A DNA stretch of 64,000 nt, from assembly GCF_011440375.1 (NCBI RefSeq), contig NZ_JAAOIR010000001.1:1054001-1118000 (forward strand). The letters are read 5' to 3'. The notes beneath the pieces are model-generated. The model was not told the origin of the DNA and made no database searches. It saw only the letters and a list, made by a program, of their open reading frames with translations. The first letter of the stretch is position 1, and each line of letters begins with the position of its first letter. Source of the stretch: Halorubellus sp. JP-L1 (GTDB lineage Archaea; Halobacteriota; Halobacteria; Halobacteriales; Natrialbaceae). Made by a program: the position numbers and the translations under genes. Positions 25,107-56,173 of the stretch are shown here, one piece after another.

Positions 25107-25229
25107 GTGTTATTGTTTCGCTTCGGCGGCAACACCAGCTTTTCTCGATGTCGCCCGAGACCTGCGGGGCGCACCGATACTCGCTACTGTCACCATGGGT
25201 AGGGGTACAACAGAAAGGCACGACCCATT

Positions 25230-39508: not shown

Positions 39509-42334
39509 CTACTGCTCCGACAGCTCCGTCACGGACCGATACTGCACGAACACGTTCTCAGACGGCTCGTCATCGTCGTCGCCCGACGCGACCGACGCGT
39601 TCCCCGACCCCGACGTGTCGACCGAGATCGACTCCCCGTCGAGGACCGCGGACTCCGGCACCGCGACCGTCGTGACGCCACCGCCCTCGACGTCCAGCGT
39701 GTACACGCCGTCCGCCTCGACGACCGAATCCGTCCCACCGTCGGCCGGCGACACCTCGTCGTTCGTCGCGTACGGAACCGTCACCACGTACTCGCCGTCC
39801 TCGTCAGCCTGCACCGTCTGCTCGTACGTGAAGTTCCCGCCCGTCTGCGTGTTGTTCAGCGTCACCGACGCCGTCACGTTCGCGCCCGGCGACGCCGACC
39901 CAGTCAGCTTCGCACCGTCCACGCGCTCGAAGGTCTTCACCGCCGGCGTGTACTTGACGTCGTGCAGCGCCAGTTGCTGCGAGAACTGGAACTGGAGAGC
40001 CGTCTGCTGGAACTGCGTCGCGTTCATCGCCCCCAGGTCACGGTAGAAGTACTGCTGGGCGACCTGCCCCTGGCGGAGAATGCTGTACGTTGCGAGCATC
40101 CGCCGCTGCTCCGACGCGTGCACGAGCCGATACTGCTCCAGGCCGTCCGCGTCGTCGTAGTACAGCTTCGAGAGCATCGTCTCCTCGAACCGGTCACTGA
40201 ACGCCGTGTACGGTACCGTGGTGTTCCCCTGCTGCGTGGAGACGTTCTGACGCTCCCGAGTGAAGTACTCGTTCCGCGGCGGACCGCTCCACGTCGCGAT
40301 CGCACTGAACTTCTGCGTCGCCATCTGGTGGTCGATCGTCACGTACCGCACGTCCTCGCTCCGCTGCTGGGCGGTCTGGTTCACAATCATCTCGCGGTAG
40401 TCCGCCGGCCCGTACTGGTCGACGTTCGGCTCGCGCGGACTCAGCGACGGCAGCGCGTCCAACAGCAGGTTCGCGTTCGACTCGTTCTCGTGCAGGAAGT
40501 ACTTCGACGCGGTCCGCGCACCCGCCTGGAACGGGTTCGCGTGCGGGATGCGGTCCCCACGGACCGTGATCCAGTGGCCGTAGTCCCACCACGACATCAC
40601 GCCGTAGGCTCCCTCCGGGTACTCGAAGTCGTCCGTCTTCTCGTAGGTTCCGTACTTCTCGAGCCCCTCTATCTCCGGCGTCCCGTTCTGCATCCAGTCC
40701 GTCGTCGAATCCCACGCCGTGACCGTCCGCGGCGCCGGACCGTTCGAGCGGGGGTTGTCCGGGTTCCCCGCGACCTGCCGGTGGACGTCCGTCCCGGTCA
40801 TCGCGATGCCGCCGATCGGCGCCAGCGGCGCGAGCACGAGGACGACCGCGGCGAGCACCACGGACACGTGGTACGCCTTGACGTCCGAGAGTTCGAGGTC
40901 GCTATCGATCTCGGCGAAGCCGAGTAGCGACCCGACGAAGTACGCGTTCAGGACCGCCACCGGCAGCACGAGGTAGTAGTTGAACCGTTGCTGGGTGAGC
41001 GCCATCATGAACACGAACACCGTCCAGACGCCGAGGAACACGTACTCGGCGCGGACGCGTTCCTTGACGGCACGGTACGCGAGGATGCACAGGCCCGCGA
41101 TACCCGTGAGGTACGTGAGTCCGTACGAGCCGACGAGCGCGCGATTCAGTCGTCGGATGTACCCCTCCTCTAGCGGAACGAGCGCTTGTGCCTCGCCGAT
41201 GGTGAGCGTCGTGTCGTTCTGCCCGAGTGCGAGCGTCCGGAACAGGTTGTTCTGGATGCTCCCCCAGGCATCGGGGAGGACGACGCTGAACGCGAGCACG
41301 GCGAGCAGCGCGAGCGAGAGCGCCGAGAACGGGAACAGGCGCCGGTCGAAGTCGGTGTCGTCCCACGCCCGCCCGAGCCACGCGAGGAACGCACACCCGG
41401 CGGCGACGCCGACTGTGAGGAGGACGTGCAGGAGCGAGATCGCACTCGCGGAGAACCCGAGTTCGTCGATGCCGACGAGCGAGAAGACCGCGACGGTCAG
41501 GAGGGAAACGACGCCGACGAACGCGACGTGGTCCGGGCTGGAGCCGACCGCGTACTTCGCGCCGAGCGCGAGCAGGAAGAACGTCCCGATGATGCCGACG
41601 AGGACGATCGCTGGCGGCCACACCCAGACGTACAGCGAGATGGCGACGCCGGCGAGCACGCTGTACTTCGTCGGCTCCTTCAGAGCGTCCCAGTCGCGGT
41701 CGAGCGCGAGTTCGTAGATGGGTTTCTCGCGCTCGGCGACGCGGAGCGCGACCATGAACGCGAGGACGCTGATCGCGTGGAACAGGACCTCGGCGGCGTG
41801 GTGGTCGGCGAATCCTGCGGTCGTGCGGTTGAGGAACACGCCGGGAAGCAGTGCGAGGACGGCGACGCCGAACAGCGCGCCGAAGCGGCCGGTGAGACGC
41901 CGGGCGATGAAGTACGTCGGGATGGCGACCGCGGTCCCGAAGACGGCGGGCGCGTACAGGAGCGTCTGCGCGATCTGCCGCTGGCTCGGGTCGCCGAGAC
42001 CGACGACGAGCGCGGCCGTCGCGACGAGCTGGTCGTACAGCGTCCCGAACTGCGAGTTCGAGACCCCGTAGGGGAACTGCGTCCACGGGTCGAACGGCAT
42101 CGTGAACGGCCAGTTGTGGACGACGTACGACGTCTCTCGGAGGTGATACCAGGCGTCGTTCCCGCTGAAATAGATCCCGTCCGGTCGGATGAAGTTCTCC
42201 GCCGGGAGGACACGCAGCCAGAGCATGAACGCGAGGAGGGCGGCGAGGACGGGGACGTGGTAGTACTCCCGGAAGAGGTCTACCACGGAGGACTCGCCGA
42301 GGACCTCCTGGCTGGTCTCGGTTTCGCTACTCAT
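39509..42334 (-). CDS. aglB: Oligosaccharyltransferase AglB
   Basis: The 941-residue enzyme transfers lipid-linked glycan to Asn in N-x-S/T sequons on the outer membrane face. An N-terminal multi-helix STT3 domain carries the first acidic motif around D60 (FSGNDAWYHLRE) and FADHHAAEVLFH. The soluble C-terminal domain has the signature SWWDYGHW near residue 580. A beta-rich C-terminal domain ends with an acidic Ser/Gly tail. The S-layer glycoprotein elsewhere in this window is a likely substrate. ATG 42334. It heads a glycosylation gene region. Confidence 0.96.
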   Translation of the reverse strand: MSSETETSQEVLGESSVVDLFREYYHVPVLAALLAFMLWLRVLPAENFIRPDGIYFSGNDAWYHLRETSYVVHNWPFTMPFDPWTQFPYGVSNSQFGTLYDQLVATAALVVGLGDPSQRQIAQTLLYAPAVFGTAVAIPTYFIARRLTGRFGALFGVAVLALLPGVFLNRTTAGFADHHAAEVLFHAISVLAFMVALRVAEREKPIYELALDRDWDALKEPTKYSVLAGVAISLYVWVWPPAIVLVGIIGTFFLLALGAKYAVGSSPDHVAFVGVVSLLTVAVFSLVGIDELGFSASAISLLHVLLTVGVAAGCAFLAWLGRAWDDTDFDRRLFPFSALSLALLAVLAFSVVLPDAWGSIQNNLFRTLALGQNDTTLTIGEAQALVPLEEGYIRRLNRALVGSYGLTYLTGIAGLCILAYRAVKERVRAEYVFLGVWTVFVFMMALTQQRFNYYLVLPVAVLNAYFVGSLLGFAEIDSDLELSDVKAYHVSVVLAAVVLVLAPLAPIGGIAMTGTDVHRQVAGNPDNPRSNGPAPRTVTAWDSTTDWMQNGTPEIEGLEKYGTYEKTDDFEYPEGAYGVMSWWDYGHWITVRGDRIPHANPFQAGARTASKYFLHENESNANLLLDALPSLSPREPNVDQYGPADYREMIVNQTAQQRSEDVRYVTIDHQMATQKFSAIATWSGPPRNEYFTRERQNVSTQQGNTTVPYTAFSDRFEETMLSKLYYDDADGLEQYRLVHASEQRRMLATYSILRQGQVAQQYFYRDLGAMNATQFQQTALQFQFSQQLALHDVKYTPAVKTFERVDGAKLTGSASPGANVTASVTLNNTQTGGNFTYEQTVQADEDGEYVVTVPYATNDEVSPADGGTDSVVEADGVYTLDVEGGGVTTVAVPESAVLDGESISVDTSGSGNASVASGDDDDEPSENVFVQYRSVTELSEQ

Positions 42335-42471: not shown

Positions 42472-43935
42472 TTATCGAACCTCGTCGATGAGGTCGCGTG
42501 AGACGGCGAAGACGTCGACGCGGACGCGTTCGCTGAGCGCGAGCAGGATCGCGAAGTACGTCCCGCCGCCGACCGCGAGCACGAACCCGAGGCGGAGCGC
42601 GCCGTGGGCCGCGCCGAGCGCGTCGACGAGCACGTACACGACCGCCGTCATCGCGACCATCGCCACGACCTCCTTCCCGACGTCCCCGAGCGAGGACAGC
42701 GGCACCGGCTGTTCGAGGTAGTAGAGCATCGCGGCGACGCTCGACCCGAACGCGAGCACGGTCGCCGACGCCACCCCCCACGCGTCGTACGCCATCGTCA
42801 ACGGAACGGCCGTGACGGCGTACACGAGGATGAGGAGCAAGCCGCTCGCTGCGTACACGCGCGGGTTCCCCGTCCCGAGGAAGTACTTCTCGAGGCCGTT
42901 CCGGTAGCCGTTCAGGAGGTTCGCGACCGCGAGCACGGGCACGAGGACGTTCGCCAGTCCGACCACGCCCACGATCGGGATCGTCGTCGTTCCCGGGTTC
43001 TCGCCGTAGAGCGTCAGGAGGACGTCGTTCCCGATGACCGCACCGCCGCCGACGAGCGGGATCGCGAACAGGCCCGCGTACGTGAACAGCGCCGCGAACA
43101 GCCGGTTTATCTCGGCGTCGTCGCCGACCTCGGAGAGCGCGGAGAACTGCGGGAACGTCACCTGCGATAGCGCCGAGGAGAACAGCATCGCGGCCTCGGT
43201 GAGCGCGAACACGTTCTTGTAGACGCCGGTCGGACCCTGGCCCGCGAACTGGCCGATGATGATGTAGTCCGCGTGCTTGAACAGTTGACTGGAGACGTTC
43301 TGGACGTACGCGTACTTCGAGTAGTCGAGGAAGTCCCCGAGGAGTGCACGCGACGGCAGGTTCGGGACGACGCGCGCGTACCCGAAGTACGCGATGAGGA
43401 ACGTCACGAACTGGCCCGCGACGACCCCGTAGACGAGTCCGATGACGCCGAAGTCGTTCAGGACGAACGCGGCTTGGATGGGGACGATGATGGCGTGCCG
43501 GCCGTTCTCGATGGCGCCGGCGAGCGCGACGCGCTGCTGGCCCTCCAGGTACGCGGTCGACAGCCGGAACAGCCCCCACGTGAGGACGCCGAGCGGGACG
43601 ATCAACGCCACGTCCAGCCCGACGACGCCGTCGACGAACCCCCGGAGCGGGACGAGCAAGACCGTGATGGCGGCGACGCCGCCCAGCAGGACGAGCGCGC
43701 CGGTCGTGAAGTACGCCGCCTGGTCGTCGCCCTCGCTGACGCGCTTCGTGAGTACCGTGTACAACCCGAAGCTGGAGAGGTTTGCGGCGATCATCTGGAT
43801 GCTCACGAAGATCGCGAACGTCCCGATGCCGTCGAACCCGAGCAGGCGCGTGAACACGAGCGTCCCGAGGAATCCCGCGAGGGACCCGAGGACGTTCGTC
43901 ACGAACCGCTTGGAGACCTCCGCGCCGACCTTCAT
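42472..43935 (-). CDS. Polysaccharide/oligosaccharide flippase (Wzx/AglR-like)
   Basis: The 487-residue protein has about fourteen predicted helices in the MATE-like PST family, which flips lipid-linked glycans outward. The opening SKRFVTNVLGSLAGFLGTLVFTRLLGFDGIG is typical. The start is ATG 43935, overlapping the upstream gene's stop by 1 base (TGATG); GTG 43938 is an alternative. Co-transcription with the phosphatase-like gene upstream and nearness to aglB suggest it supplies the AglB donor. Confidence 0.88.
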   Translation of the reverse strand: MKVGAEVSKRFVTNVLGSLAGFLGTLVFTRLLGFDGIGTFAIFVSIQMIAANLSSFGLYTVLTKRVSEGDDQAAYFTTGALVLLGGVAAITVLLVPLRGFVDGVVGLDVALIVPLGVLTWGLFRLSTAYLEGQQRVALAGAIENGRHAIIVPIQAAFVLNDFGVIGLVYGVVAGQFVTFLIAYFGYARVVPNLPSRALLGDFLDYSKYAYVQNVSSQLFKHADYIIIGQFAGQGPTGVYKNVFALTEAAMLFSSALSQVTFPQFSALSEVGDDAEINRLFAALFTYAGLFAIPLVGGGAVIGNDVLLTLYGENPGTTTIPIVGVVGLANVLVPVLAVANLLNGYRNGLEKYFLGTGNPRVYAASGLLLILVYAVTAVPLTMAYDAWGVASATVLAFGSSVAAMLYYLEQPVPLSSLGDVGKEVVAMVAMTAVVYVLVDALGAAHGALRLGFVLAVGGGTYFAILLALSERVRVDVFAVSRDLIDEVR

Positions 43936-45491
43936 CACTCGAGGTAGCCGAGTTCGCGCAGGCGGTCCTTGACCTCGTCTTCCTGTTCCTCGTCCTCGAT
44001 GCCGCCCCCGGTGATGGCGTCCGCGCCGACGAACGCGTACGTCTCCGGCGCTCGGCTGGCGGCGTCGGCGTCGTCGGCGAACACGTCGAGGACGTCACCG
44101 GTCATCGTCTCGGGGAGTCGGTACCCGAGCGCGTGAAGGACCGTCGGCGCGACGTCCGTTATCTCGGCGCCCTCGACGGTACCGTCGCGGAACGACGGCC
44201 CGCGAGCGAGGAAGATGCCTTCGCGTGCGTGCCCGCTCGTGTCCGCGTCGACGACGGACTGGTCGACGTCGAACCGCGAGGTGACGTGGACCTCGGGCGT
44301 CTCGACTATCATCGCGAGGTCGGGCGTGTGCGGGCCGCCGCGGTTGAGGCGTTCGAACCTGACGTCGAGACCGGCGTCCGTGGCGGCCGTCTCGAGCGCT
44401 TCGCGTGCGCGCTCGCAGACGTCGTCGACGACGTCCGGATCGTCGGCGAGCGCGTACACGAGCGCGGTCTTCTGGCCCTGATCGACGACCGCCTCCGTGT
44501 TCGCCCAGTCGATGCGACCCGTCTTGATGGCGTTGTCGAGGCCGAGCGCGTCGCCCGTCGGGAGGCCCGCGACGGTGCTCGCCGGGACGACCTTCCGGGC
44601 GAACGTCAGCAGGCCGACGCGACCGAGGACGTCGCTCGCCAAGTCCCGGAGCGACCCGAGTGCGACCTTCGTCGAGTCCCCGGACTCCTCGAGGGACACC
44701 AGCCCCGCGTCCTCCAGGACGTGGTTCGGGGCGAAGAACCGCCGGACCTTCTCGAACCCGTGATCGCTCATCACGACGACGTCATCGTCCCCGTGGGCGT
44801 CGAGGAACTCGCCGAGGTGCTCGTCGACGCGTTGGTACACCTCGAAGATGGCGTTGTCCGTCGACGCCGGCGGCGTGCTATCCGGACCCCAGAAGTGATG
44901 GGCGATGCGATCGGTGCCGCGGATGAGACCGACGGCGAGGTCAGGATCCTCGGCTCGGACGAAGTGCTCGAATCCCTCGAAGCGCTTGTCGACGAGGTCG
45001 AGGCTCCGGTCGACGTACTCGCGCGTTCCAGCCTGTTCGTCGTTCCGGAGGCGGTACCCGTCGACGAGCTCGGTGAGTTCGCCCCAGGCCTCGGGCGGAT
45101 GCGAGTACGCCTCCTTGTGCTCGGGGGCGGCGGCGATTATCGTGCCGTCGATCGACTGCCAGGGGTACGACCCGGGGATGTTGAAGACGACCGAGCGCCC
45201 GCCCTGGTCGTCGACGACGTCCCACATCTTTCCGGGGACGAACTCGTCGTGGCTCAGGTCGTTCTCGCGCGTGTCGCGGTTGAAGTGCGTGAACCCGTAC
45301 ATGTCGAGCGTCGTCGGGTCGCGGCCGGTCGCGAACGACGGCCACGCCGGCACGGTGATCTCGGGAATCGTGCTCTCGAGGTCGCCGGACGCGCTCTCCT
45401 CGAGCAACCGCTCGAAGTTCGGGAGTTCGCCGGCGTCGACCCACGGCTCGATGAGCGAGAACGTGGCGCCGTCGAGGCCGAGGAGTATCAT
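43935..45491 (-). CDS. Alkaline-phosphatase-superfamily phosphodiesterase-like enzyme
   Basis: The 518-residue protein starts MILLGLDGATFSLIEPWVD. D7 and the T-V-P-A-W segment (EITVPAWPSFATGRDP, about residues 44-59) supply the first metal ligand and the nucleophile region. VVMSDHGFEKV (near residue 246) and later His residues complete a two-metal site. Type I phosphodiesterase/nucleotide pyrophosphatase proteins have this layout. The final residues are RLRELGYLE, shared by five other genes here. It is translationally coupled to the flippase, suggesting a role in trimming or transferring a phosphate group on the lipid-linked glycan. Confidence 0.8.
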   Translation of the reverse strand: MILLGLDGATFSLIEPWVDAGELPNFERLLEESASGDLESTIPEITVPAWPSFATGRDPTTLDMYGFTHFNRDTRENDLSHDEFVPGKMWDVVDDQGGRSVVFNIPGSYPWQSIDGTIIAAAPEHKEAYSHPPEAWGELTELVDGYRLRNDEQAGTREYVDRSLDLVDKRFEGFEHFVRAEDPDLAVGLIRGTDRIAHHFWGPDSTPPASTDNAIFEVYQRVDEHLGEFLDAHGDDDVVVMSDHGFEKVRRFFAPNHVLEDAGLVSLEESGDSTKVALGSLRDLASDVLGRVGLLTFARKVVPASTVAGLPTGDALGLDNAIKTGRIDWANTEAVVDQGQKTALVYALADDPDVVDDVCERAREALETAATDAGLDVRFERLNRGGPHTPDLAMIVETPEVHVTSRFDVDQSVVDADTSGHAREGIFLARGPSFRDGTVEGAEITDVAPTVLHALGYRLPETMTGDVLDVFADDADAASRAPETYAFVGADAITGGGIEDEEQEDEVKDRLRELGYLE

Positions 45492-45513
45492 AATTGGCGC
45501 GTTGCGTGGGACG

Positions 45514-45521
45514 TCTATAAG
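45514..45521 (-). promoter_or_regulatory. TATA-like box of the 43935-45491 gene
   Basis: On the minus strand it reads CTTATAGA, 23 nt before ATG 45491, so the transcript is predicted to be leaderless. Confidence 0.6.
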
Positions 45522-45574
45522 GGGTTTGGTCTCTCGGTTCCCGACACCGCGGCCTCACGCCCCGTGGCGCGCGT

Positions 45575-47176
45575 TCACTCCAGGTACCCGAGGTCCGAGA
45601 GCCGCTGGGCGACTTCGGCGTCCTCGGTCGCGGCGTGGTCGCTGGCGTCGTACGGGTCGTACGCGCGAGGACTCGGTGCGTCGACCGCCGGGAGCGCGCT
45701 CCCGTCCATCACTTCGGCGGGGGCGAGGTCGAGCGTGGCGAGGACGGTCGGTGCGACGTCGAACAGGTGCGCGCCGGCGAGGTCCGCGTCGGCGTCCGCG
45801 CCCTCGCCCGCGACGGCGACGACGCCCTCCAGCTTGTGGTTCCATGGTTCGGGGGCGTCGAATCGCTCGCCGACGAGCGCGGACAGCGAGTGCTCGAAGT
45901 CCGTGGGGACGGCGAGCACGTCCACGGCCTCCTCGGCGTAGGGACCGTGGATGTGCTCCTCGCGCGGGACGACGGACTCGAACACCGGGTCGCCGTCGGG
46001 CGTCTCCACGCGCTCGAGGAGATCTATCACGTCCGCGCGCACCTGCTCGTACTCGCCTTCGGGGACGACGCCCTCGGGGTCCCGGCCAGCCACGTTGAGG
46101 CGGACGCCCAGTTCGGACGGCGAGCGGAGGTACGCAGTCGACGTCGCGAAGTCGACGGCGTCGGTCGCGGCGAACACCGCCCCGACGGGCACGTGCTTCC
46201 CGACGAACGTCGCGAGCCCGAACCGTTCGAGGAACCGCTTCCCGCGCTGGTGCGTGATGCCCACGCGCGCGCCGGCGGCGGCGAGGCGCTCCAGGAACGG
46301 GTGGTCCTCGCGTTCGCCCTCCGAACTCGTCAACTCCTCGTCCTTGATCTGGAACCACGACGGGACGCCCCGGCCGTCCCGCGTGGTCTCGACGACGGCG
46401 TGCTCGCGAAGGTAGTCGTTGACGCGGAACTCGTACCCGTCGTACTCGCCCATCCCGTGGTCGCTCGCCACGACGACCGTGTCGGGGTCGCAGTCGTCGA
46501 GGATCGCTCCGACCTGCTCGTCGACCGCGCGGTACACGTCCCGGACCTTCTCGCGGTCGCCCGGGTAGTCGTGGAAGACCGCGTCGGTCTTCTGGAACTG
46601 CACGAACCCGAACTCGGGGTCGAACCGCTCGCTCAGATATCGGAACGCCTCGCCGCGCATCCGGCACAGTTCGAGGTAGTCAGCGAACCGCTCGCCGCTC
46701 GCGTCGTCGCCGGTCTCGCGCTCGGCGTACACGCGGTAGTCCCCGAGTTCGTCGCGGACGTCCTTGAGGACGCCGTCGGGGTGACACGGCGGCGACTCCG
46801 CGGCGAGGTAGCCCGGGATCACCGCGCCGTTGATCTCGGGCGGCGGACTCGTCACGGGCGCGTTCACGACGACGCTCGTCAACCCGGCGGCGTCGGCGTA
46901 CTCCCAGAGCGTGCGCTGGCGGACGTCGGTCGCGTTCACGATGTCCCAGTCGTACCCGTCGAACCGCAGGAAGTCGAACACGCCGTGCTTTCCGGGGTTC
47001 GCGCCCGTGTACAGCGACGGCCACGCGCTCGCGGTCCACGGCGGTACCTGCGACTCGAGGACGCCCGTCGCTCCCTCGGCGAACAGCGCCTCGAGGTTCG
47101 GGACGTCGCCGTCCTCGAATAGGGGTTCGAGGACGGGGAAGCAGACGGCGTCGAGCCCCACGAGGAGCGTCTGCAT
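45575..47176 (-). CDS. Alkaline-phosphatase-superfamily hydrolase, second paralog
   Basis: The 533-residue protein starts MQTLLVGLDAVCFPVLEPL, with D9 at the first metal position. The nucleophile region is PPWTASAWPSLYTGANPGKHG, where T or S replaces a sulfatase Cys. VVVASDHGMGEYDG (near residue 240) carries the Asp-His metal ligands. It ends QRLSDLGYLE. It is monocistronic from its own TATA-like box. The substrate is probably a phosphodiester or sulfate on a surface glycan or lipid, by context only. Confidence 0.8.
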   Translation of the reverse strand: MQTLLVGLDAVCFPVLEPLFEDGDVPNLEALFAEGATGVLESQVPPWTASAWPSLYTGANPGKHGVFDFLRFDGYDWDIVNATDVRQRTLWEYADAAGLTSVVVNAPVTSPPPEINGAVIPGYLAAESPPCHPDGVLKDVRDELGDYRVYAERETGDDASGERFADYLELCRMRGEAFRYLSERFDPEFGFVQFQKTDAVFHDYPGDREKVRDVYRAVDEQVGAILDDCDPDTVVVASDHGMGEYDGYEFRVNDYLREHAVVETTRDGRGVPSWFQIKDEELTSSEGEREDHPFLERLAAAGARVGITHQRGKRFLERFGLATFVGKHVPVGAVFAATDAVDFATSTAYLRSPSELGVRLNVAGRDPEGVVPEGEYEQVRADVIDLLERVETPDGDPVFESVVPREEHIHGPYAEEAVDVLAVPTDFEHSLSALVGERFDAPEPWNHKLEGVVAVAGEGADADADLAGAHLFDVAPTVLATLDLAPAEVMDGSALPAVDAPSPRAYDPYDASDHAATEDAEVAQRLSDLGYLE

Positions 47177-47199
47177 ATGCCCGAGAAAATCGGCGGTAC

Positions 47200-47207
47200 G
47201 GTTAAGT
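47200..47207 (-). promoter_or_regulatory. TATA-like box of the 45575-47176 gene
   Basis: On the minus strand it reads ACTTAACC, 24 nt before ATG 47176. Confidence 0.55.
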
Positions 47208-47332
47208 GCTGCTTTTCTCTAGCCGTTACTGATCGAATACCGCTAGCGTTCAAAACGAAGACTATTGGGCCAATCTAGGACTTCGCCGTCATTCGTTTCG
47301 ACGAACACACCACCGGTCGATCGAGGGGAGAT

Positions 47333-48259
47333 TCAATTCCGGAGCGTCCCGACTCCGACACCGATTCGAGCCGTGACGTCTCCAATCCAGGCGCAGATGG
47401 CAGTCGACAGCGAGTCCTCGCGATGGATCGAGCGAGCTAACAAGAGCGGTGCGAGGGCGATGCCAGCGATGCTTCCCATGAACGAGCGTCCGTCCGGCGT
47501 TCCAGATTCGGCGATGCCGTTTCGGTACCGCTGGTCGAGAAACTGCCGGAGGGTGTAGTCTCGGTTGTGCCAGACTGGGATCGGGAGGAACGCATTCCCT
47601 TCCGGGTATGCCTCGAGGACCGTCCGTTGGAAGGTCGCGTCCTCGCCACGGTGGAGCGTTTCGTCGAAGCTAGCCGAAGTTTCTTCAATCGCTGTGCGCC
47701 GATAGGCGACGTTCGACGTCGCGAACGTCCGTAGTTCCATGCCTCCCACAGCGACGCCGTTATCGTCGCGGTCGCGGCGGTGGGGGAGCTGGTTCCGGAG
47801 AATTCGTGACTCGTCGACTCGCGCCGGAAATCGATTATACACTCGCTCGTGTGGAAGCTGCATTCCACCGGTCGTCACGACGTCGTACGCGTCGAAGACG
47901 GCGACGATCCCAGACACCCAGTCAGGCGGAGGAACGCAGTCGTCGTCGGTGAATGCGACGATGTCGCCCGTCGCGTACTCAAGCGCGATATTTCGTGCTT
48001 CGCTCACCCCGCTGGTCTCTTGGACGACGACGGTCGCATCGAGTTCGTCGCAGAGTGGCGTTCGAAGGATTCTCTCGGTGTCGGCGTCGGGGGTGGCGAC
48101 GACGACGACCTCGGCGTTCTCGTAATCTTGCGCGTGGATGGCGGCGAGCGTGGCGGCGAGCTTCGGGGCTCGCAAGTGAGTCGGGATGACGATCGAGACC
48201 AGGGGTTCGTTCTCGGGAGCGAGCGAGAAGTTCGACCAGGCCGCTTCGGAGTCGCCCAT
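47333..48259 (-). CDS. Family 2 glycosyltransferase
   Basis: The 308-residue GT-A enzyme has VSIVIPTHLRAPKLAATLAAI near residue 20 and the nucleotide-sugar metal motif AFTDDDCVPPPDW (the DxD equivalent) near residue 105. An acceptor-side LHRGEDATFQRTVLEA motif (the ED general base) follows near residue 210. A C-terminal hydrophobic stretch (GIALAPLLLARS) may bind the membrane. Third codon positions are visibly less GC-rich than in neighbouring genes, which suggests recent acquisition. It diverges from the next glycosyltransferase over a shared TATA element. Confidence 0.85.
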   Translation of the reverse strand: MGDSEAAWSNFSLAPENEPLVSIVIPTHLRAPKLAATLAAIHAQDYENAEVVVVATPDADTERILRTPLCDELDATVVVQETSGVSEARNIALEYATGDIVAFTDDDCVPPPDWVSGIVAVFDAYDVVTTGGMQLPHERVYNRFPARVDESRILRNQLPHRRDRDDNGVAVGGMELRTFATSNVAYRRTAIEETSASFDETLHRGEDATFQRTVLEAYPEGNAFLPIPVWHNRDYTLRQFLDQRYRNGIAESGTPDGRSFMGSIAGIALAPLLLARSIHREDSLSTAICAWIGDVTARIGVGVGTLRN

Positions 48260-48294
48260 CTTGATAGATAGAATGAAGGTACGGGTGAAAACTG

Positions 48295-48302
48295 TTTTTA
48301 AA
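48295..48302. promoter_or_regulatory. Shared TATA element between two divergent glycosyltransferase genes
   Basis: TTTTTAAA at 48295-48302 is followed by CC. It is 24 nt before ATG 48326 on the plus strand and about 36 nt before ATG 48259 on the minus strand. A symmetric TTTAAA could be read in both directions. Confidence 0.55.
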
Positions 48303-48325
48303 CCACTACGACGAAGGGGGTTGTA

Positions 48326-49360
48326 ATGGACGCCGAGGAAGCCAGTATCGTCATGCTCCACCAGGACACACACCCAGCCCATCGCGGGTTCGCGGAGGCC
48401 GTCGGGGCGGACCTCGTCGACTACCACGCGCGGTCGGTCGGGCCGCTGTCGGGGAGCGTCGTCGCTGACCTCGTGAACGGCCTGACGTATCCCGACTACG
48501 ACGTCTACATCGTGGAGGGGTCGCGGCCGCTGTACGCCGCACTCGTCCGCCGGTTCGCGCGCGGCGGGAAGATAATCTACCTCTGTGCGGACCACGGCCT
48601 GTACGCGCTCGGCGAGGGCGACTTCGAGGGCGACTCCGCCCTGAAGTCGCTCGTCGGTCGGTTCGGGACGCCACTCGTCCGCGCCGTCGGCCGACGCGGC
48701 ATCGACGGCGTCGTCGCCGTCAGCGAGTTCGCCGCCGAGTTCACGCGGCCCGTCGTCGGCCCGGACACCCCCATCGAGGTCGCGCATCCGTTCGTCCAAC
48801 CGGAGACGTACGACGCGCTCGGCGACGTCGACCCCGCTATCGGTTCGAACGTCGCGGTGACGGTCGCGCGCCCCTGGCACTACAAGGGCGTCGACCTGCT
48901 CGTCGACGCCTGGCCGCAGGTACGGGAGCGCATCCCGGACGCGGAACTGCACGTCGTCGGCGGTGGCCACCCCGAGTCCTACGGCGACACCGAGGGCGTG
49001 ACGGTGCGCGGGTACGTCGAGGAGCTCGCGGACGCGTTCCGGCCGGCCGCGCTGTTCGTCCAGCCGTCGCGGATGGACACGTTCCCCGTGAGCACGCTCG
49101 AGGCGATGCGCGCCGGCGTCCCGCCGCTGGTCACGACCGGCGCGGGGACGCGTTCGGAGGCCCGCGCGATCGACGACGCGCTCGTCGTCGACCCGACGCC
49201 CCAGGCGCTCGCCGACGGCGTCGTCGACTACTTCGAGCGCGACGTCGACGACCGGCGGCGACTCGCTGCGGTCGCCCGCGAACGCGGTGCGCGGTTCGAC
49301 GCGGACTCCCGGAAGGCGGCGTTCCGCGACGCGTTCGAGCGCGTGCTCGCCGACCTGTAG
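48326..49360 (+). CDS. Family 4-type glycosyltransferase
   Basis: The 344-residue GT-B enzyme has an N-terminal acceptor domain and a C-terminal donor domain. The latter shows VTVARPWHYKGVDLLVDAWP (near residue 180), LHVVGGGHPESYG, and FVQPSRMDTFPVSTLEAMRAGVPPLVT (the E-x7-E sugar-nucleotide motif area). An unusual start MDAEEASIVMLHQDTHPAH replaces the normal glycine-rich loop. It is followed 55 bp later by a phosphatase-like gene with its own promoter. Confidence 0.85.
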   Translation: MDAEEASIVMLHQDTHPAHRGFAEAVGADLVDYHARSVGPLSGSVVADLVNGLTYPDYDVYIVEGSRPLYAALVRRFARGGKIIYLCADHGLYALGEGDFEGDSALKSLVGRFGTPLVRAVGRRGIDGVVAVSEFAAEFTRPVVGPDTPIEVAHPFVQPETYDALGDVDPAIGSNVAVTVARPWHYKGVDLLVDAWPQVRERIPDAELHVVGGGHPESYGDTEGVTVRGYVEELADAFRPAALFVQPSRMDTFPVSTLEAMRAGVPPLVTTGAGTRSEARAIDDALVVDPTPQALADGVVDYFERDVDDRRRLAAVARERGARFDADSRKAAFRDAFERVLADL

Positions 49361-49383
49361 TCCGTGTTCGAGGCTCTCGAAGA

Positions 49384-49391
49384 GCTTTAAC
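49384..49391 (+). promoter_or_regulatory. TATA-like box of the 49416 gene
   Basis: GCTTTAAC lies 25 nt before ATG 49416. Confidence 0.55.
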
Positions 49392-49415
49392 CCGCGGCCG
49401 GTCCACGTTCTCGCA

Positions 49416-50978
49416 ATGACCGTCTACGTCGTCGGACTCGACGGAGCCGACTGGTCGCTCCTCCGGCCGTGGGCCGACGCCGGGGACCTGCCAGCGTTCA
49501 AGCGCGTACTCGACGAGGGCGTCGATGGCGACCTCGAGAGCACGCTCCCGCCCGTGACGTTCCCCGCGTGGAAGTGCTACTCGACGGGGAAGACGCCGGG
49601 GAAGCTCGGCGTCTACGAGTGGTACGCGTACGACCGCGACGCCCAGGAGCTCTCGGCGAACGACGCGAGCGACTTCACGTCCCGCGAGTACTGGGAGGTG
49701 CTCGCCGACCACGGCGTCGACGCGGGCGTCGTCAACATGCCGACGACGCACCCGGCGGACGCTCGCGAGATGGACGGCGTCGACGTGATCGCGGGCAGTC
49801 CCGCGAACGAACGGAAGACGCTCACGAACCCCGAGAGCCTGAAGCGGGACCTCCTCGACGCGGTGCCGGAGTACCGCGTGAAGCCCGACCTCGTGCTCGA
49901 CGAGGCGACGCCGGACGAACTCGTCGCCGAAGGGAAGCGGCTGTTCGACCAGCGCTTTTCCGCCGCCGAGTTCCTCGCGGACGAACGCGACTGCGACCTC
50001 GTCCACGCGACGCTGTTCTTCACGGACACCCTCCAGCATCGGCTCTGGGACCACCCCGAGCATCTGAAGGAGGCCTACGAGCGCGTCGACGAGTGCCTCG
50101 GCGCGCTGCTCGACCGCGACGACACCGAGGCGGTGGTTCTCATGAGCGACCACGGGTTCATCGAGATCGACGAGATCTTCCTCCCGAACCAGTGGCTCGC
50201 CGAGCGCGGCGACCTCGCGTTCGCGGACGACGGCACGCGCACGCTCCTGTCAACCGTCGGCCTCACCGAGGAGCGCCTGAAGCGCGTCGTCGACCGCCTC
50301 GGAGTCGTCAGTCTCGCCCAGCGCTTCGTCCCGAAGTCCGTGCAAGGGTTGTTCCCGAGCGAGAGCGGCCGGGTCGCCATCCAGGACGCCGCCATCGACT
50401 GGACGCAGACGAAAGCCATCTCGCTCGGTCGCGGCCCCGTCTACGTGAACCACGCCGCGTTCGCCGACGCAGACGACCCGGCGGCGGCCGCCGAGTCGTA
50501 CCGCGAGCAGCTTGCCGAGGACATCGCGGCGCTGGAGACGCCGGACGGCCAGCCCGTCGCGAGCGCCGTCCACGACCCCGCGAGCGTCTACACCGGCGAC
50601 CGCGAACGGGGCCCGGACCTCGTCGTCGAGTACACCACCGGCGTCGACGCACCCGAGTCCATCGGCGGCGCGGTGTTCGGAGAGCAGACCGAGTGGCTCG
50701 CGACGCACCGCCGGACCGGCATCTTCGCGGGGGTCGGCGACGACGTTGCTTCGGGCACCGCAGACCTCGACCTGTACGACCTCGCACCCACGCTCCTGCA
50801 CTACCTCGACGTCCCCGTCCCCGAGGACGTCGACGGCGACGTCCGCCGGGACGTCCTCGCCGGCGACGCCGCCAACCGCGACGTCGAGAAGGGGCCGCCG
50901 TCCGCCATCGGCGCCTCCGATCGGGGCGCCGGCGAGGAGGTCGAGGAGACGCTCCGCGAACTCGGGTACCTCGAATGA
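49416..50978 (+). CDS. Alkaline-phosphatase-superfamily hydrolase, third paralog
   Basis: The 520-residue protein starts MTVYVVGLDGADWSLLRPW, with D9 as the first metal ligand. The nucleophile segment is PPVTFPAWKCYSTGKTPGKLG (T in V-T-F-P-A-W). VVLMSDHGFIEIDEIFLPN (near residue 244) carries the Asp-His pair. An alternating domain with FVPKSVQGLFPSESGRV follows, and the protein ends ETLRELGYLE. Its closest match in the window by layout is the 43935-45491 gene. It is followed by a broken sulfatase gene on the same strand. Confidence 0.82.
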   Translation: MTVYVVGLDGADWSLLRPWADAGDLPAFKRVLDEGVDGDLESTLPPVTFPAWKCYSTGKTPGKLGVYEWYAYDRDAQELSANDASDFTSREYWEVLADHGVDAGVVNMPTTHPADAREMDGVDVIAGSPANERKTLTNPESLKRDLLDAVPEYRVKPDLVLDEATPDELVAEGKRLFDQRFSAAEFLADERDCDLVHATLFFTDTLQHRLWDHPEHLKEAYERVDECLGALLDRDDTEAVVLMSDHGFIEIDEIFLPNQWLAERGDLAFADDGTRTLLSTVGLTEERLKRVVDRLGVVSLAQRFVPKSVQGLFPSESGRVAIQDAAIDWTQTKAISLGRGPVYVNHAAFADADDPAAAAESYREQLAEDIAALETPDGQPVASAVHDPASVYTGDRERGPDLVVEYTTGVDAPESIGGAVFGEQTEWLATHRRTGIFAGVGDDVASGTADLDLYDLAPTLLHYLDVPVPEDVDGDVRRDVLAGDAANRDVEKGPPSAIGASDRGAGEEVEETLRELGYLE

Positions 50979-51025
50979 CCACCAGTGACTGACGACTCCC
51001 TACGAGCAGTGACTCCCCACGAACG

Positions 51026-52226
51026 ATGAACCCACTCAAGCGATTCCCGCGCGTGAACAGCGCGTGGATGGAGGTCAAGCACCGGGTCGCACACTGGCGG
51101 GCGCGCCGCGATCGGGAGTTCGAACGCGAAGGCACCGTCGCCGTGGACGTTCCCGTCGATCCCGTCGCTGCTCTCCGGGCGCTATCCGCACGAGCACGGC
51201 GGCCGGATGCAGTCGGACCCGCGGAACCTCGCCGCCGAGGAGTTCCCGACGCGACCGCGCGAATCCGTGCCGATGCTCCCGGACGTCCTAGAGGCCGCGG
51301 GGTACGACACGGCGATGTTCACCGCCATCCCGATGGCCGAGAAGGCCGCCGGCGACCGCTTCCAGCGCGTCTCCGTGACGTACACGGCCGCCGACGAGCG
51401 CGTCGCGGCCGCTCGCGACTGGATGCGCGGCCGCGACCGCTGGTGCTGTCACCTCCAGCTCGGCGACCCGCACGCGCCGCTCGACGTCCCGGACGAACAC
51501 CGCGAGACGTTCGACGTCCCCGCGATGGACGACCTCGAGGACTGGCGATACCGCGAGTCCACCGACGGTGACGACTTCGAAGCGTACCGCGACGCTCGCG
51601 TCCGCGCGTACGATGCCGCCGTTAGGGGTGCTGACGACGCGCTCGCGGCGCTCCTCGATTCGCTCGACGACGACACCGTCGTCGTCTGCGGCGACCACGG
51701 CGAGGCGTTCTGGGAGCACGCCGACCTGGAACGCCGCCTGAACGACGACCCGCGCGGCTACTACGGGACCGACCACGGCCACAGCGTCCTCGAGCCGGTC
51801 GCGCGCGTCCCGCTGTGGATTCGCGCCCCGAACGTCGACCAGGGGTGCGACGACGACGTCGTCTCACTGACCGCGGTCGCCCCCGTCGTCCTCGACGCGC
51901 TCGACGCCAGCGTCGCGGGCGATCTCGAGCCCGCTCCACTCGACGAAGCCCGCGGGACTGAACGGGCGCTCTGCGAGGAGACTGCCTACGGGTACAACCA
52001 ACGCGCGGTCTGGGTCGACGACCGCAAACTCGTCGACGTCCCCGCCACCGGCACGCGGCTCGCGTTCGACGTCGGCGACGGCGCCGAGGGCGACCCGCTC
52101 GAACACGTCCCCGAGGACCTCGTCGACGCACTCGAAGGGTACGGCGACGGCGTTCAGGGCGAGGACGCCATCGACGTCGACGACGCGACCCGCGACCGAC
52201 TCGAGGAACTCGGGTACCTCGAATAG
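51026..52226 (+). pseudogene. Sulfatase-family gene broken near its start
   Basis: An N-terminal piece starts at ATG 51026 (MNPLKRFPRVNSAWMEVKHR) and reads in one frame to about 51125. The homologous continuation is in a different frame from about 51117: SNAKAPSPWTFPSIPSL, then LLSGRYPHEHGG, then an unbroken sulfatase body through VVCGDHGEAFWEH to the stop at 52226, ending DRLEELGYLE. The segment that normally carries the first metal-binding Asp (VxxDxxRxD type) is missing altogether. A small deletion therefore seems to have removed it and shifted the frame. An ATG at 51207 could start a truncated protein without the nucleophile region. A base-calling error alone would not restore the lost segment. 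Confidence 0.72.
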
Positions 52227-52298
52227 CCGGCGGTCACCGACCTCGCGAAGCGAGCGCTATCGACTGGTTCTCGCGGATAGAACTGGCGTCGGTCGGCG

Positions 52299-53678
52299 TT
52301 ACTCGAGGTAGCCGAGGTCCTCGAGGTGCTCGGTCACCATCTCGTCGGTCTCGTCGACGCCCCGTTCTGCGCCCTCGCGCATGCGCCGCATCCGGTCCTG
52401 GTGGTCGTCGAGCGCGGCGGCGAGCGCGTCGTACTCGGGCGCGTCGGAGCGGTCGTCCTCGGGGCGTTCGTCGGGAGTGGCTCGAACGTCGAAGCAGAGC
52501 TCGCCGTCGTCCGCGTGCCGGAGGAGCTTCCAGCCGTCCGCGCGGCGCGCACAGCATCGGCCGTAGTCGACGGACCGCCCGACGTCGCCGAACGCCCACT
52601 CGCGGGCGTCGACGTCGCCGTCGATGAGCTCGAGCGCGCTCGCGCCCTCCCAGTCGTCGTGTGCATCGACGCCGACGACGTCCGCGAGCGTCGGTGCGGT
52701 GTCGACGAGGCGGATCTGGCCGTCGACGGTCGCCGCCGACCGCTCGGGATGGTGCACGATAAACGGGACGCGGACGACGCCCTCCCAGAACTCGGGCGGA
52801 TGGCCGGCGTGCCCGTGCTCGCCGACGAGCTCGCCGTGGTCGGCGGTGAACACGACGACGGTGTCGTCGAGGACGCCGCGGTCCTCGAGCGCGTCGACGA
52901 ACGCCCGGAACTGGTCGTCGACGTACGCGCACTCCGCGTCGTACAGGCAGCGGATCGTCTCCCACTCCTCGTCGGTGACCTCCTCGGGGTGATGCGTGCC
53001 CTTCCGGGAGAGCCGCCGGCACTCCCCGACGCTCCGGGGGTCGTCGAGGAATCGCCGCTGGTACTCCGCGGGCGCCTCGTAGGGGTGGTGGGCGTCCATG
53101 TAGTGCAGCCACGCGAACCAGTCCTCGTCGTCTTCGCCGTCGCGGGCGTCGACGAATTCGAGCGCGCGCTCGTTCAGGGAGTCCGCGCGCTCGTGCTCGA
53201 ACTCGCGACCGCCGGCCGTCGCGAACAGCGCGTCCACGCGGGTGTAGACGCGCTCGATCGTGCGGAAGACGGCGCCGTCCTTGTCGAGGTTCCGCTGCAC
53301 GAACTGCTTGACCTCGTTCACGTTCGCGCCGTCGCTGCTCGCGTCGTGCAGCACGTCGAACCCGCGGTCGAAGTGATACGCGCCGCTCGCGAACTGGTTG
53401 TCCGTGTACCCCGCGGTCGCGTACCCCGCGTCGGAGAGCACTTCGGCGAGCGTGCGGATCGGGCCGCCGGCGTCCGCGGGCGGGATGCCCAGGCCGTCGA
53501 TGCTCGCGAAGTACCGGCTCGCGTGGATGGCGGGGAACGACGCGGGCGTCGACGGCCCGTTCGCGACGGCCTCCGTGAACTCGACGGCGTCGTCCGCGAA
53601 CGCGCGCGTCTCCGGCATCACCCTCGACGCGATCCGGTCGGCGCGCAGCGAGTCGACGGTGACGAGGGCAACGTTCAT
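52299..53678 (-). CDS. Sulfatase-like hydrolase
   Basis: The 459-residue protein starts MNVALVTVDSLRADRI (D9 metal ligand). The active-site segment is GPSTPASFPAIHASRYF. The formylglycine-type Cys is absent and Ser or Thr takes its place, so it may act on phosphate or require Ser conversion. WLHYMDAHHPYEAP (near residue 188) and VVFTADHGELVGEHGHAG (near residue 275) are the family metal and substrate motifs. It ends EHLEDLGYLE. It converges with the broken sulfatase gene across 72 bp. Confidence 0.85.
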   Translation of the reverse strand: MNVALVTVDSLRADRIASRVMPETRAFADDAVEFTEAVANGPSTPASFPAIHASRYFASIDGLGIPPADAGGPIRTLAEVLSDAGYATAGYTDNQFASGAYHFDRGFDVLHDASSDGANVNEVKQFVQRNLDKDGAVFRTIERVYTRVDALFATAGGREFEHERADSLNERALEFVDARDGEDDEDWFAWLHYMDAHHPYEAPAEYQRRFLDDPRSVGECRRLSRKGTHHPEEVTDEEWETIRCLYDAECAYVDDQFRAFVDALEDRGVLDDTVVVFTADHGELVGEHGHAGHPPEFWEGVVRVPFIVHHPERSAATVDGQIRLVDTAPTLADVVGVDAHDDWEGASALELIDGDVDAREWAFGDVGRSVDYGRCCARRADGWKLLRHADDGELCFDVRATPDERPEDDRSDAPEYDALAAALDDHQDRMRRMREGAERGVDETDEMVTEHLEDLGYLE

Positions 53679-53770
53679 ACCGGTGAGACGAAAGCGACCG
53701 CTTAAAGAATGACGCTTCGGGGCGTTCGCGCCCTCGCTGGCGGGTTCGGAGGCGCGACGACGCCTCGAGG

Positions 53771-53875
53771 CGATTCGGACCTCGTCCGCGACGACGAATA
53801 GCAGCCGATTCGGACCTCGTCCGCGACGACGAATAGCAGCCGATTCGGACCTCGTCCGCGACGACGAATAGCAGC
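53771..53875. repeat. 35-bp tandem repeat, 3 perfect copies
   Basis: Units at 53771-53805, 53806-53840 and 53841-53875 are identical; a fourth begins (CGATTCA) at the stop codon of the glycosyltransferase on the minus strand. The copies are contiguous, with no spacers. Confidence 0.95.
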
Positions 53876-53879
53876 CGAT

Positions 53880-55031
53880 TCAGGCGTCGTCAGCGGCGAC
53901 GACGCGCGCCACGGCGTCGCGGGCGTGCTCGCGGAAGGCGTCGTGGGACCAGTCGGCGGCCGTCGCCTGGATGCGTTCGCGGTCCCAGTCCGTTGCGAGG
54001 ACGCGTTCGACGCCGTCGCGAACGCCCGCGGTCGATGCGGGGACGACGACGCCGTCGACGCCGTCGGTGACGTGATTCCGCAGGTTCGGTTCGTCCGGGA
54101 CGACGACGGGCTTGCCGGCGCTCTGGAACTCCTTTGGCGTCATCCCGCAGTGCTCCTCGCGGGCGAACGCGACGCCGCCGACGCTCCCTGCGACGAGGTC
54201 CGCGAGGTCGTCGTCGGAGAGGCGCTCGTGGACCGTCACGTTCGGGCGGTTCGCGACGCGCTTTCGAAGGGGGCCGTCGCCGACGAGCACGAGGCGGGCG
54301 TCCGCGCTCGCGAACGCGTCCGCGACGACCGCGGCCCGCTTCATCTCCGACAGCCGGCCGATCATCACGAAGTACGGGTCCTCGTCGTCCGCGGGCGCGT
54401 ACCGGAACCGGTCCACGTCGATGGGCGGGTTCACGACCGGGACGCCAGAGCGATCCCGGAGATAGTGCCGGTGGACGCGTTCGCGCGTGAACGCGCTGTT
54501 CGCGAGCATCCCCGTGCAGTAGTCCGCGAAGTGCCGGTCGAGGACGGAGACGAGCGTCGTGCTCGCCCAGTCCAGGACGCCGTCCGTCGGGCGCGCGTAG
54601 AACCGCGGCGGCGGGACGTGACAGTAGTGGACGTGGTGCTGGTCGTGTCTCGGCACCCACCACTTCGCGGCCGTCCCGCTCGAGATCACGACGTCCTCGT
54701 CGAAGTCGAGGCCGCGGAAACCGGCGGCGCGAAGGAGTTCCGAGACGGGCCGCGCGGCGTCGTTCAGGAACAGCTTCGAGGAGAGCCCCTCGTGGAAGCG
54801 CTCCTGGAAGGGAAACTCGACGTCGTAGCCGTCCCAGAACTCGCGCTCGGGCGTGTGCCCGACCGTCACGGGGGCGTCGAACGCGTCCGCGAGCGCCTTC
54901 GCGACCCTGCCCGCACCGCCGGGATGCAGCCACGACCCCTCGTGGACGATTCTGACCGAGCGGTCCGCGAGGACGTCGTCCGCGTCGACGTCGGGGAGCG
55001 CTGGGAGGGCTCCGGCGTCGCCGTCGGTCAT
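53880..55031 (-). CDS. Family 4-type glycosyltransferase
   Basis: The 383-residue GT-B enzyme. The N-terminal acceptor domain has VRIVHEGSWLHPGGAGRVAKAL, the classical glycine-rich loop. VHYCHVPPPRFYARP is typical of mannosyl/GlcNAc-type transferases. The C-terminal domain has VMIGRLSEMKRAAVVADAF, LVLVGDGPLRKRV and VAFAREEHCGMTPKEFQSAGKPVV (the donor E-x7-E region). ATG 55031 overlaps the stop of the upstream sulfatase-like gene by 4 bp (ATGA), so the two are coupled. Confidence 0.88.
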   Translation of the reverse strand: MTDGDAGALPALPDVDADDVLADRSVRIVHEGSWLHPGGAGRVAKALADAFDAPVTVGHTPEREFWDGYDVEFPFQERFHEGLSSKLFLNDAARPVSELLRAAGFRGLDFDEDVVISSGTAAKWWVPRHDQHHVHYCHVPPPRFYARPTDGVLDWASTTLVSVLDRHFADYCTGMLANSAFTRERVHRHYLRDRSGVPVVNPPIDVDRFRYAPADDEDPYFVMIGRLSEMKRAAVVADAFASADARLVLVGDGPLRKRVANRPNVTVHERLSDDDLADLVAGSVGGVAFAREEHCGMTPKEFQSAGKPVVVPDEPNLRNHVTDGVDGVVVPASTAGVRDGVERVLATDWDRERIQATAADWSHDAFREHARDAVARVVAADDA

Positions 55032-56173
55032 TCGAGGTAGCCGAGTTCCGCGAGCGTCTCCTCGTCGGCGTCGTACCGCGTGATGCCGCCGTCGACGTCG
55101 AACGACTCGAGCGCGTCCCTGAGTTCGTCGTCCATCTGGGCGTCTCCCCCCTCCAGGTCCCGCGCGGTGTACGCGTCTTCGCCGGCGTCCGCGTCGGGGT
55201 CGTAGTTCACGATGCCGTCGCGGTTCATCGCCGCCCGCCGGTCGCCGTAGAGCGCGAACGCGACCTCCCTGTTCTCGCGCCCGAGGCCGTGCTCTTCGCC
55301 GACGAGCATGCCCGGGACGTCGATCAGGCTCGCGACGTCGCCGAAGTCCCAGTCGACGTTCTTCGTCGCGAGCGGGACGTGATGCAGGAGCGGATGCAGG
55401 AGCCCGGGGTGACCCCAGACGCCGTCCTCGCCGAGCAGTTCGCCGTGGTCGGAGAGGAAGACGACCTCGGTGTCCTCGGGGACGCCCTCCCAGAGCCGCC
55501 GCAACTCGACGTCGAGCTCCTCGCACTCGCGCCGATAGAGCTCGCGGACCAGGTCCGCTTCCTCGCCGTTCACGCGATGCGAGATCGCCTTCCGACTCAC
55601 GCGATTGGCGTAATCCCGCGACACCGGCGAACTGTGCGGGTCGTAGGGGTGATGGGGCTCCATGAAGTGCAGCCACCCGAACCAGTCGTCGTGGCCAGCG
55701 GTCTCCTCGAAGAACGTCTCGATCACGTCGTCAGCCCTGCGGAAGGACTTCCCGAGCTTCACGACCTTCGAGCGAGCGCGCTCGAACTGGTTCCAGGCCG
55801 CCGCCGCGACTTTGTACGGCGTCGAGCCGAGTTCGAGCTTGTCCGAGACGAACCCCGCGATACCCTCCTCGCTCGCGCTCGGCGACTCGAAGTGGTCGAA
55901 CGCGTCGTCGTACCCGTACTTCGGCGACAGCAAGTGGTTCGTCGTGAGGCCGACCTTGTGGCCGTCGACGCGTCGCGCGACGCTCGTGCCGTCTTTGAGG
56001 CCGCGCTGGAGCGCGTACTCACCGCCGATTATCGCGGGGAACGACCCGAACGTCTCCGGGAACGTCGAGAACGCGCGGTCGTGCTCGAACTCGAGGTAGT
56101 CCCGCGTCGCCGGGAAGTGCCTGAAGTGATCGTACCGCAGCGAGTCGACGGTGACGAGGAGTTTTCGCGTCAT
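55028..56173 (-). CDS. Sulfatase-like hydrolase coupled to a glycosyltransferase
   Basis: The 381-residue protein starts MTRKLLVTVDSLRYDHFRHF (D10 metal ligand). The active-site segment FSTFPETFGSFPAIIGGEY has Thr/Ser and no Cys. WLHFMEPHHPYDPH (near residue 170) and VVFLSDHGELLGEDGVWGHP (near residue 246) are the metal-site motifs. It is shorter than the 52299-53678 enzyme and ends ETLAELGYLE. Its stop codon overlaps the start of the glycosyltransferase, so both probably work on the same glycan. Confidence 0.85.
   Translation of the reverse strand: MTRKLLVTVDSLRYDHFRHFPATRDYLEFEHDRAFSTFPETFGSFPAIIGGEYALQRGLKDGTSVARRVDGHKVGLTTNHLLSPKYGYDDAFDHFESPSASEEGIAGFVSDKLELGSTPYKVAAAAWNQFERARSKVVKLGKSFRRADDVIETFFEETAGHDDWFGWLHFMEPHHPYDPHSSPVSRDYANRVSRKAISHRVNGEEADLVRELYRRECEELDVELRRLWEGVPEDTEVVFLSDHGELLGEDGVWGHPGLLHPLLHHVPLATKNVDWDFGDVASLIDVPGMLVGEEHGLGRENREVAFALYGDRRAAMNRDGIVNYDPDADAGEDAYTARDLEGGDAQMDDELRDALESFDVDGGITRYDADEETLAELGYLE

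Follow-up and report, generated by a model that had tools for sequence, protein, structure and literature searches.

A recurrent C-terminal LGY tail on alkaline-phosphatase-superfamily proteins of haloarchaea and on RHH proteins encoded beside tail-less members

Why do six proteins of the alkaline phosphatase (AP) superfamily, all encoded in one N-glycosylation locus of Halorubellus sp. JP-L1, end in the same five residues, LGYLE? The locus lies in a stretch of 64,000 nucleotides (contig NZ_JAAOIR010000001.1, positions 1,054,001 to 1,118,000), which was analysed as a whole and is referred to below as the window. It is anchored by aglB, its gene order is kept in other haloarchaeal families, and its features, in window coordinates, are the following.

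39509..42334, minus strand: aglB oligosaccharyltransferase (STT3, AglB_L1, AglB core), the anchor of the locus
42472..43938, minus strand: flippase-like polysaccharide biosynthesis protein (PF13440)
43935..45491, minus strand: AP1, phosphodiesterase-type (PF01663) AP-superfamily protein of 518 aa, tail EDEVKDRLRELGYLE
43938..43991, minus strand: C-terminal tail helix of AP1 with LGYLE, residues 501-518 (LGYLE codons 43952-43938)
45575..47176, minus strand: AP2, PF01663-type, 533 aa, tail DAEVAQRLSDLGYLE (LGYLE 45592-45578)
47333..48307, minus strand: glycosyltransferase family 2, no tail
48326..49360, plus strand: glycosyltransferase group 1, no tail
49416..50978, plus strand: AP3, PF01663-type, tail EEVEETLRELGYLE (LGYLE 50961-50975; start inferred at MTVYVVGLDG)
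51026..52226, plus strand: AP4, sulfatase-type (PF00884), tail DDATRDRLEELGYLE (LGYLE 52209-52223; N-terminal part in a different frame)
52299..53678, minus strand: AP5, sulfatase-type (PF00884), 459 aa, tail DEMVTEHLEDLGYLE (LGYLE 52316-52302)
52302..52346, minus strand: C-terminal tail of AP5, residues 445-459, an isolated low-confidence helix in the AlphaFold model, then LGYLE
53880..55040, minus strand: glycosyltransferase group 1, no tail
55028..56173, minus strand: AP6, sulfatase-type (PF00884), 381 aa, tail DADEETLAELGYLE (LGYLE 55045-55031)

The six AP-superfamily reading frames that close with LGYLE and a stop codon, as reported in a first-pass annotation of this DNA, were all confirmed (6/6; stops ending at 43935, 45575, 52299 and 55028 on the minus strand and at 50978 and 52226 on the plus strand), and with all frames of the window read, the string LGYLE occurs at these six ends only. 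The codons that specify it differ among the six genes, so the ending was not spread by recent copying or by gene conversion. All six proteins score above the curated cut-off of a family profile, AP1-AP3 for PF01663 (type I phosphodiesterase) and AP4-AP6 for PF00884, AP4 for profile positions 75-300 only. The description of the remaining sequences as strongly different is accurate between the two groups, for which BLAST finds little besides the SDHG core and the tail, and is too strong within AP1-AP3, which are 27-32% identical over their full length, tail included. Residue inspection covered AP1, AP4 and AP5; S-D-H-G and other invariant columns are present in the AP1 and AP5 alignments. In AP4, the N-terminal segment (51026-51121) and the remainder, which runs from near 51105 (ORF 51207-52226), are in different frames, about 43 codons including VVDCLRADH are missing compared with the orthologues L074 and L084, and the N-terminal metal site is gone; from its sequence, AP4 has probably been inactivated, or else reflects an error in the assembly.

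The likely activity of these proteins is suggested by the aglB cluster of Halobacterium salinarum, in which the AP-superfamily proteins Agl30 (VNG1056C) and Agl31 (VNG1057C) sulfate the N-glycan (PMC11980604). The window enzymes likewise belong to the AP superfamily and are encoded in an aglB-anchored N-glycosylation cluster. By analogy, they are probably glycan sulfotransferases like Agl30 and Agl31. The closest folds to AP5 are S1 sulfatases and phosphonate monoester hydrolases (choline sulfatase 6g5z, SpAS1 4upi; Foldseek E 3e-23, TM 0.66). The S1 formylglycine sulfatases carry a Cys/Ser-x-Pro-x-Arg nucleophile motif, whereas AP5 reads GPSTPASFPAI, and its Thr44, which stands in place of the Cys or Ser of formylglycine sulfatases, is invariant in 47 relatives; AP5 therefore has no formylglycine site. 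It also differs from the S1 sulfatases by its additional C-terminal tail. AP1 is closest in fold to the ENPP nucleotide pyrophosphatases and phosphonoacetate hydrolase, at about 15% identity, and has an additional C-terminal linker and tail. Elsewhere in the window, positions 22293-25109 encode a probable S-layer glycoprotein (DUF7827, CARDB, PGF-CTERM), which is likely to be the protein that the nearby glycosylation locus modifies.

The ending is not particular to this locus. In the 3.76-Mb source genome, LGY[LIM][DE] before a stop codon occurs eight times, in the six window proteins, in a seventh LGYLE sulfatase on a separate contig (C5:314421) and in a ribbon-helix-helix (RHH) protein ending LGYLD, against none for the reversed pattern. 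LGYLE-stop was found in 102 of 145 haloarchaeal genomes, with about one reversed-pattern hit per dozen genomes, and the 87 distinct LGYLE-ended haloarchaeal ORFs comprise 56 AP proteins, 25 copies of a near-universal RHH protein and 6 others, further RHH proteins included. When proteins were sampled blind to the tail, it ended 29/29 phosphodiesterase-type and about 15/17 PF00884 proteins of haloarchaea; at one further phosphodiesterase-type locus, outside the 29, the region reads LAELGYLE. The tail is equally present on AP proteins away from aglB loci, and since exact LGYLE makes up about 17 of 23 in the orthologous aglB loci of four genomes, the 6/6 of the window is unremarkable.

Comparison of the C-termini of haloarchaeal superfamily members, in and out of glycosylation loci, revealed a shared core, V-x-x-R-L-x-x-L-G-Y-[LIVM], usually followed by an acidic residue and in total by 0-6 variable residues. 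The core is invariant and the linker variable; L at -8 is present in 56/56 distinct AP tails, though this position lay outside the search pattern, and R at -9 in 41/56. The first-pass annotation had read the six tags as selection for a docking, stability or folding signal at the very C-terminus. Selection on the tail is upheld, as are its likeness to a docking module and its place outside the modelled core; what does not stand is any special status of the locus, of the very C-terminus or of exact LGYLE, which is a minority among the ends listed by hand (10/29 phosphodiesterase-type and 4/27 sulfatase-type tails; other common endings are LGYR, LGYK, LGYL, LGYLDDNEH and LGYLEIKD).

The variable ends bear on the idea that the free C-terminus is recognised as a signal for degradation, sorting or processing, which we find very improbable. 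The tail does lie strictly near the C-terminus and an acidic last residue is common, but 0-6 varied extra residues are tolerated (LGYLDDNEH, LGYLEIKD and LGYR among them), so neither the free carboxylate nor the last residue is the signal, and a strict C-terminal peptide signal was rejected. Moreover, where an enzyme has no degron, one would not be expected to turn up on the RHH protein encoded next to it, the situation described below. C-terminally tagged Agl30 and Agl31 stay active (PMC11980604); if they bear the tail, a free end cannot be a requirement.

Searched alone against Pfam, the tail matched no family above cut-off, a PDB profile search with it returned only helix-cap look-alikes, and a literature search on the LGYLE motif found nothing relevant. 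Look-alike C-terminal helix caps occur on the unrelated proteins uL13 (KLAALGY) and APS kinase (LKKLMELGYL); the adenylyl-sulfate kinase 7yq0_A ends in an LGYL helix (VEEEVEAVLKKLMELGYL), possibly merely a common helix cap. LxxLGYLE is likewise the ending of a third small family of haloarchaea (KLRTALQLL...), with no AP gene nearby (L042/L168, 9897-10160; L066/L169, 9685-9939). A general feature of sulfatases was rejected as a source of the tail, as five bacterial plasmid AP proteins and the sampled methanogen sulfatases are without it.

Could the tail nonetheless be ordinary family ancestry, a final helix common to these AP families that packs on the body for stability and has no partner function? 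We regard this as quite improbable. It would fit the family-wide presence of the tail in haloarchaea whatever the locus, and also the intermediate confidence of the AP1 tail (pLDDT 63-69). AlphaFold models were made for AP1 and AP5, from alignments of 32 and 47 rows, and the bodies are well modelled (mean pLDDT 88-89, pTM 0.88). In AP1, most of the body is at 85-98 and, after a linker (495-500) below 50, the tail helix (501-513) reaches about 63-69; in AP5, the tail is at about 50 or less, with the linker (440-444) and LGYLE (455-459) below 50. On the question of whether the tail packs into the fold, both models place it outside the folded core, somewhat more confidently as a helix in AP1 than in AP5, where it is in effect unplaced and the model gives no support for docking in cis. 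In these two models the tail is thus an isolated helix on a disordered tether beyond the folded body, and its low confidence could stem from the shallow alignments. Also against ancestry, the tail is not found as the last strand or helix of every family member: several AP lineages lack it, and an adjacent RHH protein then usually bears one. On a tree built from phosphodiesterase-type AP sequences trimmed of the tail, presence or absence of the tail switches at least six times, four of these changes being forced by well-supported branches. Finally, choline sulfatases and ENPPs are the nearest folds among solved structures, the five bacterial plasmid proteins have no such tail, and the same tail occurs on RHH proteins, another fold. 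The tail resembles a functional element that can be reused more than a chance relic of descent.

At two loci (L159, L160), a tail-bearing RHH gene abuts a gene for a tail-less phosphodiesterase-type AP protein, and from this pairing we predicted that tail-less AP genes should neighbour tail-bearing RHH genes. The source genome agrees, its tail-less AP gene (C4:199208; 8867-10234 in L244) having an RHH gene whose product ends in RLENLGYL 375 bp away (8247-8492 in L244), as does genome G002, in which a tail-bearing RHH gene is immediately upstream of a tail-less AP pair. The tail-less sulfatase-like subfamily was then gathered across 141 genomes and 6 kb on each side scanned with an HMM of the RHH domain built without the tail. 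The first RHH-domain HMM overlooked one true neighbour, at L289, which came to light later. An RHH gene was present within 6 kb at 15/19 loci, with the tail on 15/15 of these RHH proteins; at the remaining four loci an RHH gene lies at a distance of 12-39 kb. Since L249 and L195 are one record and hence not independent, 14/18 was used for statistics, against 0/34 loci of tailed AP controls (0/20 phosphodiesterase-type, 0/14 sulfatase-type; Fisher p 2e-9). Tail-less phosphodiesterase-type proteins with a tail-bearing RHH neighbour are encoded at L159, L160, L289 (where the RHH stop overlaps the AP start), L290 and L340-L343; at L291 and L292 no RHH gene was found within 6 kb.

An RHH alignment search of the 141 genomes gave bimodal scores. 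The strong type was found in 20/20 genomes with a tail-less sulfatase-like AP protein versus 2-3 of 121 others (Fisher 2e-22, kinship ignored), occurring without such a protein in G069, G117 and, at the borderline, G075 only. From the RHH side, 5/5 further genomes have a tail-less AP gene within 3.2 kb, which in four cases abuts or overlaps the RHH gene, and 28/29 genomes with the strong-type RHH have a tail-less AP gene nearby; in the exception, G117, a tailed AP gene lies 2.5 kb away. Among four independent pairs on the phosphodiesterase-type tree, the RHH gene tracks tail loss in up to three and never in the opposite sense, an underpowered comparison (sign test p 0.25); with the sulfatase-like subfamily included, the independent associations number about 4-5. 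The RHH domain of the partner is suggested by sequence pattern and by fit to a home-made HMM, library matches being weak (FitA-like RHH, E 0.002, below cut-off). At L244 (7010-8260) and L195 (6670-7938), homologous glycan-biosynthesis-like proteins of about 416 aa (ILFNVGHPAQVHLFRNA) are encoded by genes that run into the beginning of the RHH gene with the tail.

As the main alternative, the neighbour might merely be a transcriptional regulator of the AP gene, with an RHH tail that has its own role, such as stabilising the RHH dimer, and a likeness to the AP tail that reflects convergence on a stable helix C-cap (L-x-x-L-G-Y-hydrophobic). We regard this reading as rather unlikely, although several observations speak for it. 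In haloarchaea, RHH proteins have been proven to act as regulators that bind DNA (CdrS, PMC7439475), seven RHH-AP pairs have a divergent, regulator-like layout, and the same helix cap ends the unrelated uL13 and APS kinase. In addition, the near-universal haloarchaeal RHH protein (SDLVRFLLRS...LGYLE; SDLVRFLLRSIVIQHQ...QLRDLGYLE) bears the same tail and is mostly not encoded near AP genes. A regulator alone, however, leaves unexplained why RHH genes accompany tail-less AP genes of two groups and none of the 34 tailed controls, and the pairing spans several orientations, including convergent genes with overlapping ends. The gene order varies among convergent, divergent and overlapping co-directional arrangements, a variety that fits a protein partner better than mere linkage to a promoter. 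The near-universal RHH gene of the source genome is at C1:907545-907748 (L016; L165, 9215-9949); its identity with CdrS was not supported, with no ftsZ neighbour found.

A search with one RHH subgroup against about 85,000 genomes returned 24 loci, in ANME-1 and related archaea, Methanothrix, Archaeoglobaceae, Micrarchaeota, Nanohaloarchaea, Dehalococcoidia, Aerophobetes and haloarchaea. Many of these adjoin cysD, whose product itself ends in LRALGYM, and L186-L188 are near a tail-less sulfatase-like AP gene. In ANME-1 and some bacteria (L173-L188, L192), two tandem tail-bearing RHH genes precede cysD, and several of the cysD-RHH loci have a gene for a PF01663 protein of about 270 aa downstream, a possible sulfate-activation cluster.

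On balance, we are inclined to think that the tail is a portable docking helix, used by AP enzymes in cis or borrowed from an RHH partner. LGYLE would be the end of a short amphipathic helix on a flexible acidic linker, and the AP enzymes would need this helix either as their own copy (cis) or as that of the RHH partner (trans). Most likely, by analogy with the C-terminal tails that RHH antitoxins place on their partners, the helix would dock into a groove of the AP enzyme or between its subunits, thereby regulating or organising the enzyme; less likely, it would attach the enzyme to some third protein that takes part in glycan assembly. The RHH proteins resemble the RHH antitoxins of type II toxin-antitoxin systems (ParD/CopA/FitA kind) in their small size, predicted N-terminal RHH domain, C-terminal tail and gene position beside a presumed partner enzyme (PMC8706911, PMC4803016). 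They differ in that the neighbour is a full-length AP-superfamily enzyme and not a toxin, the gene order is unfixed and no antitoxin family hit reaches cut-off. More tentatively, these genes may form a two-part archaeal AP (probably sulfotransferase) system, not previously described, in which a required docking helix is either built in or brought by a dedicated RHH adaptor, which may also sense the enzyme level and regulate the gene.

That AP-superfamily proteins of archaeal glycosylation clusters are sulfotransferases is a recent finding, and a conserved helix carried by the enzyme or by a small partner offers a handle for recognising this enzyme group, and the subunits it lacks, from sequence. 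A small archaeal RHH group named by no family library also gains a likely partner. If the two-part arrangement is true, the related tail-bearing RHH genes beside cysDN, which serve sulfate activation, in ANME-1 archaea, Dehalococcoidia and others would widen the system to a sulfate-transfer module.
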